DNA of 64,000 bases, from positions 124,001-188,000 of the forward strand of contig NZ_LAIJ01000001.1 of NCBI RefSeq assembly GCF_001449115.1. Reading direction: 5' to 3'. Each line of letters begins with the position of its first letter. The first letter of the stretch is position 1. Shown here in pieces: positions 41,494 through 43,614 of the stretch. The translations under genes were made by a program, and so were the position numbers. The DNA is from Occallatibacter gabretensis. Lineage in GTDB: Bacteria; Acidobacteriota; Terriglobia; Terriglobales; Acidobacteriaceae. The notes below the pieces were generated by a model. It was not told the DNA's origin. It did not search any database and saw only the letters and a program-made list of their open reading frames with translations.

Positions 41494-41730
41494 TCATCGG
41501 AAGAAGTCCGCAGCAACGATCTTGCGTTCGCCGCCCTGCCCCATCTCGAACGAGAAGGTCTTGCCCGCGTCCGCAAAACGCAGCATCACCGTCTCCATAA
41601 ATGAGATCCCCATCACTGTCAGCCCATTGACGGAAGCGATCTTATCCCCGAGGTTGAAGCCCGCCTCAGCGGCAGGGCTGCCCTGCGAGACAAACGCCAC
41701 CGTGAACCCCGGTCCCTCTTTCTGAGCCAT
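41494..41730 (-). pseudogene. Lone PDZ domain, probably a gene fragment
   Basis: Only 78 residues, nearly all of them one PDZ domain (FVSQGSPAAEAGFNLGDKIASVNGLTV). PDZ domains are normally part of proteases, kinases or secretion proteins. There is no Shine-Dalgarno before ATG 41730 or GTG 41733, no signal peptide, and the frame is open back to the stop of the SpoIIE fusion gene 57 bases upstream. It may be the C-terminal remnant of an aspartyl-protease/PDZ protein or a small stand-alone adaptor. I favour a remnant. Confidence 0.45.
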
Positions 41731-41790
41731 CACGATGGCGATGATTCTGCCACAGATGTGTCCGATTGATGTTGAAGAACGGGATGAATC

Positions 41791-43203
41791 TCAAACTGAG
41801 ATGCGCAGTACGACCAGCGTCATGTCATCGTGCTGCGGCTCGCAAGCGGCAAAGGCGTCGGCCGCACGAAACAAACGTTGCAACAGTTCCGCGGCGTTCA
41901 GTTCCGCGTGCGCCTGCGCCTCGGCGATCATCCGGTCTTCACCCCACTCGTCTTCTGCGGCGTTCATGGCTTCGCTGATGCCATCAGTAAAGGCCAGCAG
42001 GATATCGCCGGGGAGCAGGTGAAGCAACTGCTGCTTGTAGGCCGCGCCGGCAAGCAGCCCGACGACGGGGCCACCGTCTCCCAAACGAAACACTTGCCAG
42101 GCGCCGTTTTCTTTGCGTAGCACCGCAGGAGGATTGTGTCCGCAATTAACGTAGTGCAATGTGCGGGAGGCGCAGTCCAGTTCGGCGTAGAAGAATGTGG
42201 CATAGCGGTTGGTGTCGGACGCGTCGTAGAGAAGGCGGTTGACATTGGCCATCTTGATCCCCAGCCGGCCTGCGCCACTCAGCATTTGACCGCGCAGGCT
42301 TGCGTGAAGGCTTGCCATCAACAGGGCGGCGGACATGCCCTTGCCACTGATGTCGCCAATCGCGATACCCAGGCGGTCGCAGCCGTGCTCTGTTGTTCCG
42401 CTGGCGGAAGAGATGTTTTCGCCGGGCTCATGTCCTGCTTCTGCCAGCGAGCCATCACGGATGTCTATGAGGTCGTAGTAGTCGCCGCCGACTGCCTGGG
42501 CGGGTCTGCAGTGCGCGGCAATCTCTACGCCCGCAACGTTGGGGAACGTCTGCGGGAACAAGCGCTCCTGCACCTCGCGGGCAATCTCGAATTCACGTTC
42601 CAGCTTGGCGCGCGACACGGCCTCTTCGGCCAGCGTGGGAATAAGTTTGTAGATGTTGACGAGTATGCCTGATGGCAAAGCCCTGGTGCTGCCGAGCGCA
42701 AATCCGCGTGGCAGTGATCCGCCCTCGAAAAAGCGTTTGCCTTTGCCCAGCACAATAGGATTGACCAGCAGAACAACCTCATCCGCCAGTCCGTGATCGA
42801 GGAGCACGGAAATCAGCGTCGAGCTGCCCGCGACGACCAGGTCCGGGCCTTTCTTAGCCTTGATGCGTCGAATGCTATCCACGAGGTCCGATCCAATGGC
42901 CTCGAATGGACCCCATTCCAAACTCTCCGGCCTGTGAGTTACGACGTACTTCGTCGCCGCATTCAGACGGTCCGTCATGGGAGTCTTCGGTGCTTTCGGC
43001 CAGAAACTCGCCAGCAAGTCGTAGGTTCGGCGACCAAACAGCAAGTCGCAGGTCTTGCCGTACATCTCGTTTACTATCTGTAACCCCGCAGGCGAACGAT
43101 ACTGCGCGGTCCAGTCGCCGTATGGGAAATCGTCCTCCGGACCGCTGGTCATCTGGATAACGCCATCGAGCGAGATATGCTCGATGATTTTGAGTTTGCG
43201 CAT
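41791..43203 (-). CDS. RibD/DHFR-like domain fused to SpoIIE-type PP2C phosphatase
   Basis: A 470-residue fusion. Residues about 1-187 are a complete RibD C-terminal/dihydrofolate-reductase-like domain of the YyaP kind (IEHISLDGVIQ, FGRRTYDLLASFWP, DLVVAGSSTLISVLLDHGLADEVVLLVNPIVLGKGKRFF split around 121-158). Residues about 188-215 form a helix of the sort that precedes SpoIIE phosphatases (EREFEIAREVQERLFPQ). Residues 216-470 are the SpoIIE/RsbU-like phosphatase with VGGDYYD near 238-244, IGDISGKGMSAALLM, CGHNPP and FTDGISEA, and a C-terminal HDDMTLVVLRI, so the metal-binding aspartates are present. ATG 43203 has AGGAG six bases upstream. No frame break is visible at the junction near 42640. 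Confidence 0.88.
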   Translation of the reverse strand: MRKLKIIEHISLDGVIQMTSGPEDDFPYGDWTAQYRSPAGLQIVNEMYGKTCDLLFGRRTYDLLASFWPKAPKTPMTDRLNAATKYVVTHRPESLEWGPFEAIGSDLVDSIRRIKAKKGPDLVVAGSSTLISVLLDHGLADEVVLLVNPIVLGKGKRFFEGGSLPRGFALGSTRALPSGILVNIYKLIPTLAEEAVSRAKLEREFEIAREVQERLFPQTFPNVAGVEIAAHCRPAQAVGGDYYDLIDIRDGSLAEAGHEPGENISSASGTTEHGCDRLGIAIGDISGKGMSAALLMASLHASLRGQMLSGAGRLGIKMANVNRLLYDASDTNRYATFFYAELDCASRTLHYVNCGHNPPAVLRKENGAWQVFRLGDGGPVVGLLAGAAYKQQLLHLLPGDILLAFTDGISEAMNAAEDEWGEDRMIAEAQAHAELNAAELLQRLFRAADAFAACEPQHDDMTLVVLRISV

Positions 43204-43614
43204 ATTGATCTCCTATAAATGCTCGGTTTGCGTCTTCGTGAGGGACTACCAGGCCCGAATGAACGAAGAGCAAGAGCGGCGGACAACAGTTCGACGAAGC
43301 TTTCACCGCCAAACGCGGCAAGTGACAGATTGTGCAAACTGGATCCAACGAACAACGAGACAGTAGATTCGACCAGTGATTAAAGTATCGTATTGCCTTG
43401 CAACCGATGTACTCGCCGTCTGATTTCTGGACTGGCGTACTCAGCGGCGGTGCATCGACGGACCTATTCGAAGTTTAGAGGCGGTGGTCCAGTGATTTCT
43501 CTCATAAACGCGCTTCTGTTGAGTTAGTCGAATGCTACTACGGTGTGCGGCTCGGAAGGAGGACGCCGGGTTTGCGATAAGGCTACAAGAAGCAAGACAG
43601 TGCTTGATTGGATT

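Follow-up and report, generated by a model that had tools for sequence, protein, structure and literature searches.

A DHFR-like domain joined in frame to a SpoIIE/RsbU-type phosphatase in several genera of Acidobacteriaceae

Why would a phosphatase of the SpoIIE/RsbU class carry a fold of the dihydrofolate reductase (DHFR) type at its N-terminus, and what might that fold do there? The question is raised by a gene in a 64,000-nucleotide stretch of DNA (the window) from Occallatibacter gabretensis, a soil bacterium of the Acidobacteriaceae. A first-pass annotation, made from the letters of the window, had described a RibD/DHFR-like domain and a complete SpoIIE phosphatase in one open reading frame, with no break in the frame near position 42640. 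We found that both observations hold. Pfam places RibD_C (PF01872) at residues 9-181 (E 1.6e-16; score 61 bits, cut-off 24.1) and SpoIIE (PF07228) at residues 276-468 (E 1.4e-45; score 156 bits, cut-off 25). The border between the DHFR-like domain and the linker lies at residues 187/188 (base ~42643), and one reading frame crosses it, as it does in all four of the other genomes described below. The features of the locus are listed in Table 1. Purine-rich sequence resembling the AGGAG site is found at the same position in aligned relatives.

Table 1. Features of the fused gene and its surroundings (positions in the window)
Feature	Position	Strand	Basis
Open reading frame for the fusion (470 aa; start ATG, stop TGA)	41791..43203	-	Read from sequence; same full-length product in G118, G408, G375 and G201
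AGGAG ribosome-binding site, 6 nt 5' of the ATG	43210..43214	-	Direct sequence reading
RibD_C/YyaP-type DHFR-like domain, residues 1-187	42643..43203	-	Pfam PF01872; PDB 8jsv over 1-187
Linker, residues 188-215, predicted helix 191-215	42559..42642	-	Alignment, models, constraint
SpoIIE/RsbU-type PP2C phosphatase domain, residues 216-470	41794..42558	-	Pfam PF07228; motifs; fold matches
Upstream non-coding stretch travelling with the gene, ~90% identical in G118 and G408	43204..43531	.	
Block of ~1.75 kb common to G118 and G408, surroundings otherwise different (horizontal unit)	41778..43531	.	

Judged by sequence features, the first half belongs to the RibD_C fold family. Its best solved relative is 8jsv, a "DHFR-like enzyme from Leptospira interrogans" (E 1.9e-31), and YyaP is a further one. 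RibD_C is the sole Pfam match in the N-terminal part, with no PAS, GAF, receiver, HAMP or RsbU-N domain. The DHFR core motifs HISLDGV, GRRTYD, WPK and GS are kept. When fused and stand-alone copies were aligned, the nucleotide-binding type elements SLDG, GRxTY and the G-S loop were invariant (S11 L12 D13 G14, G57 R58 T60, G126 S127). Most positions conserved among the stand-alone reductases are unchanged in the fusion. Four substitutions, A46E, S65A, L151V and P164L, occur in all five fused proteins at sites that are invariant or nearly so in the stand-alone enzymes; these could reflect an altered pocket or simple drift.

By the same kind of evidence, the second half is a member of the SpoIIE/RsbU PPM (PP2C) serine phosphatases. 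It has fold matches to the RssB, Rv1364c and SpoIIE phosphatase domains and keeps the PP2C motifs GGDYYD, GDISGKG, TDGISEA and HDDMT. Every fusion, and no fewer than 90% of the parental proteins described below, has the metal-binding residues D241/D244, D284, D407 and D459/D460. No NCBIfam model covers the protein as a whole; the RssB and SpoIIE models are the only ones to match, far under their cut-offs. At residue 354 (42142-42144) the copy in the window reads VNCGHNPP, and the four other fused proteins read VNGGHNPP. This cysteine is close to a conserved phosphatase motif and is also found in many more distant SpoIIE phosphatases. In both structure models a helix is predicted to begin three residues past the last DHFR strand and to run from residue 191 to 214-215, where it meets the phosphatase. 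The DHFR half is of low confidence in both models (pLDDT < 50 over large parts), with a shallow alignment, and a scan of viral contigs yielded no sequences to deepen it.

We found the full-length protein in four other genomes among the 398 of the family that were searched, at 91, 90, 88 and 77% identity (G118, G408, G375 and G201). The carriers are Acidobacteriaceae bacterium KBS 83, KBS 146, Edaphobacter lichenicola X5P2 and MAG GZL_HY_2_bin.99; all belong to other genera of the Acidobacteriaceae and were sequenced independently, and three of the four are isolates. The RibD_C and SpoIIE pair was recovered by Pfam in 3/3 carrier records scanned. The database search for the same domain order suggested by the first-pass annotation thus returned full-length fusions in independent assemblies, and not relatives that always have two genes, which, with an error at the junction, the annotation had named as the outcome that would overturn its reading. 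Within the host's own genus, the full-length protein was found in the window's genome alone (80 genomes searched, 0/79 others). No further fusion turned up in samples of the order and the phylum, searches that a diverged, independent fusion would escape. In the phylum search, longer open frames at the DHFR-like matches in G599 and G515 were considered as a second fusion and rejected: each is a stand-alone gene whose frame happens to stay open upstream. Matches on plasmids each cover a single domain only.

Where did the two halves come from? The first domain is up to 72% identical to stand-alone DHFR-like genes of the family, and 60-72% identical to acidobacterial stand-alone copies. The second half matches, at 53-60% identity, the C-terminal end of ~883-aa proteins that begin with a PDZ-like part and continue with a hydrophobic (multi-TM) middle, GAF and SpoIIE. 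In round figures, identity to the two donor types is ~70% and ~57%. Phosphatases with this arrangement, of ~880-940 aa, form a large family that is common in Acidobacteriaceae (L042, L043, L045). In maximum likelihood trees of each half, the fused copies form one group, with support of 100/99 and 100/100. Both halves are therefore monophyletic in these trees, and the fusion most simply arose once.

The position of the joint can be read from the alignment. The DHFR fold comes to its usual end (...SGILVNIYKL), and the residues after it, IPTLAEEAVSRAKLEREFEIAREVQERLFPQ, align with no gap to the parents' post-GAF helix ELLQSLAHEAAQRERVTRDIEIAREVQERLFPQ; the stretch YKLIPTLAEEAVSRAKLEREFEIAREVQERLFPQ of the fusion likewise aligns gap-free to this segment, immediately after the GAF domain. 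The 28-residue helical linker retains the parental length and register. In effect, the GAF domain and everything N-terminal of it were replaced by the DHFR-like domain, with the joint exactly at the GAF end. This supports the earlier suggestion that the DHFR-like fold occupies the sensor position. The accompanying suggestion, that recombination had joined neighbouring genes, stands in part: recombination made the gene, and nothing shows that the parents were adjacent. Among the loci compared, none had both parents side by side, and there were no shared neighbours at all. The C-terminal part was cut from a ~883-aa GAF-SpoIIE protein in an event that is old, most simply single, and common to several genera.

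The sequences also show horizontal spread of the fused gene among genera of Acidobacteriaceae. The DNA shared with G118 and G408 amounts to ~1.75 kb only, comprising the gene and ~330 bp upstream, and the flanking genes differ on both sides. At fourfold-degenerate sites, 15-30% of positions differ between the fused genes, and the rpoB genes of these genomes differ at 48-58%; divergence is thus a third to half of that of rpoB. Because this divergence is low, because the neighbours differ and because only the short block is shared, the gene must have been transferred between genera. Directly downstream of the fusion, between it and a SnoaL-like gene, is a PDZ-like open reading frame of 78 residues (41494-41730, minus strand; PF13180, E 5.9e-09) that looks like the remnant of a larger gene. 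Despite this likeness to a PDZ domain, we do not claim it as a leftover of the parent with PDZ, GAF and SpoIIE parts, since no tie to that protein was seen.

What could the DHFR-like domain do in this position? In phosphatases of the RsbU class, control is exerted by dimeric helical linkers that lead from an N-terminal module into the phosphatase switch; sensor domains have been proposed to be exchangeable on this coiled-coil linker, and in the model dimerisation turns the phosphatase on (PMC12143880). Since such linkers control RsbU-class phosphatases, and since the predicted helix joins the reductase-like fold to the phosphatase, we suggest that the DHFR-like domain is an input module. The linker changes neither faster nor slower than that of the GAF parents at equal divergence, which would fit a linker that still has the same mechanical role.

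This is the reading that we favour, and our results are about evenly poised on its full form, in which the protein would be a soluble SpoIIE/RsbU-class phosphatase whose GAF and membrane parts were replaced, once, by a YyaP/RibD_C DHFR-like input module that acts through the linker and has a partner-switching output. The DHFR-like domain would form a dimer and bind NADPH, perhaps together with a substrate of pterin or flavin-like type. Occupancy or turnover of the ligand would alter how the two linker helices pack against each other and thereby switch the phosphatase on or off. The enzyme would then dephosphorylate an RsbV-type STAS protein, releasing a sigma factor or other target, and nucleotide or redox state would be coupled to the stress response. 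More tentatively, the signal itself may be NADPH or a pterin that directly sets a partner-switching stress response, through a module that took the place of GAF at one fixed position in the signalling helix before spreading horizontally.

We found that both halves are under purifying selection and that the gene is kept intact. Between pairs of fusions (Nei-Gojobori), the DHFR half gave dN/dS values of 0.09-0.27, the PP2C half 0.14-0.26 and the linker 0-0.16, with the domain dS ranging from 0.16 to saturation (~1 or more against G201, the deepest pairs being saturated). Because dN/dS is 0.09-0.27 across the two domains, both are functional. The similar strength of selection, together with the intact catalytic motifs of both domains, might also indicate a bifunctional enzyme, in which an active DHFR-like reductase is tethered to an independent phosphatase without cross-talk, the two having been joined for one process or by chance. 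This is rather unlikely, as the breakpoint falls precisely at the GAF/linker border with the helix in register, which an unselected fusion need not do, and no functional link between reductase and SpoIIE genes was seen in the relatives compared.

Reductase folds of the RibD_C/YyaP type are often dimers, and the domain could serve as a dimerising scaffold only, clamping the linker helices so that the phosphatase is constitutively active or localised, without sensing a ligand. The retained register of the linker and the role of dimerisation in the RsbU-class model would both fit. We consider this unlikely, however, because GRxT, HISLDGV, GS and most residues conserved in the stand-alone enzymes have been kept over large divergence, beyond what a scaffold needs.

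Recombination debris does arise at this gene. In G356 (L041, 7684-9204, minus strand), a piece of an integrase (PHROG 1) forms the N-terminus and runs in frame into the last DHFR strand, the linker and the phosphatase of the fusion, and the rest of the DHFR part is lost; this is a later, secondary rearrangement of the same fusion. For the gene in the window, retention by chance of a non-functional chimera is refuted, with very little probability left to it: dN/dS is well under 1 in both domains (< 0.3 in each) and in the linker, five copies are intact, and the full-length matches stand at 77-91% identity. An assembly or sequencing error at the junction is refuted outright, since the same full-length protein with the same junction is present in the four independent assemblies, including those of the isolates KBS 83, KBS 146 and E. 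lichenicola X5P2.

A phosphatase of a partner-switching (Rsb) pathway acts on an RsbV-type STAS protein and is opposed by an RsbW-type kinase. No regulatory partner gene was recognised adjoining the fusion in any genome compared. The host genome has RsbW-type and RsbV-type STAS genes in two side-by-side sets, neither of them near the fusion (G000:C2:1215864-1217284 and G000:C5:236928-237745). In one set, RsbW-like and STAS genes come after a SpoIIE gene; the other is an RsbV/RsbW-like pair. These partner-switching sets hold candidate substrates of the fused phosphatase.

We found no description of the RibD_C and SpoIIE architecture in the open literature; one in a subscription journal or an unremarked database entry is possible. 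Among the input modules given for SpoIIE/RsbU phosphatases in the literature read, a DHFR-like fold does not figure. If the reductase-like fold does regulate the phosphatase, an enzyme-derived type of sensor would be added beside PAS, GAF, receiver, HAMP and RsbU-N. The fusion would also amount to a domain swap made in nature, and so to a test of whether any dimeric module on the coiled-coil linker can exert control, as has been proposed (PMC12143880). Separate genes for the two parents are still present in related genomes, so that the swap can be rebuilt and tested using proteins from harmless soil bacteria.

Compared to known proteins, the fusion is closest in its second half to the GAF-SpoIIE phosphatases of Acidobacteriaceae, with which it shares the phosphatase and the register of the linker helix. 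In those proteins, the place of the soluble DHFR-like domain is taken by PDZ, membrane and GAF parts. The first half has the fold family and core motifs of stand-alone YyaP/RibD_C proteins, annotated as "dihydrofolate reductase family proteins" (8jsv; 2gd9, YyaP). In contrast to the fusion, which has both domains, these stop a few residues past the last strand and have no phosphatase. Most of them have no known substrate. Like RsbU and RsbP of Bacillus subtilis and RsbZ of C. difficile, the fused protein has a phosphatase of the PP2C class and a helical linker between it and an N-terminal module. The known N-terminal modules of that class are RsbU-N, PAS, receiver, GAF and HAMP (PMC12143880); in the fusion, a DHFR-like fold stands in their place.
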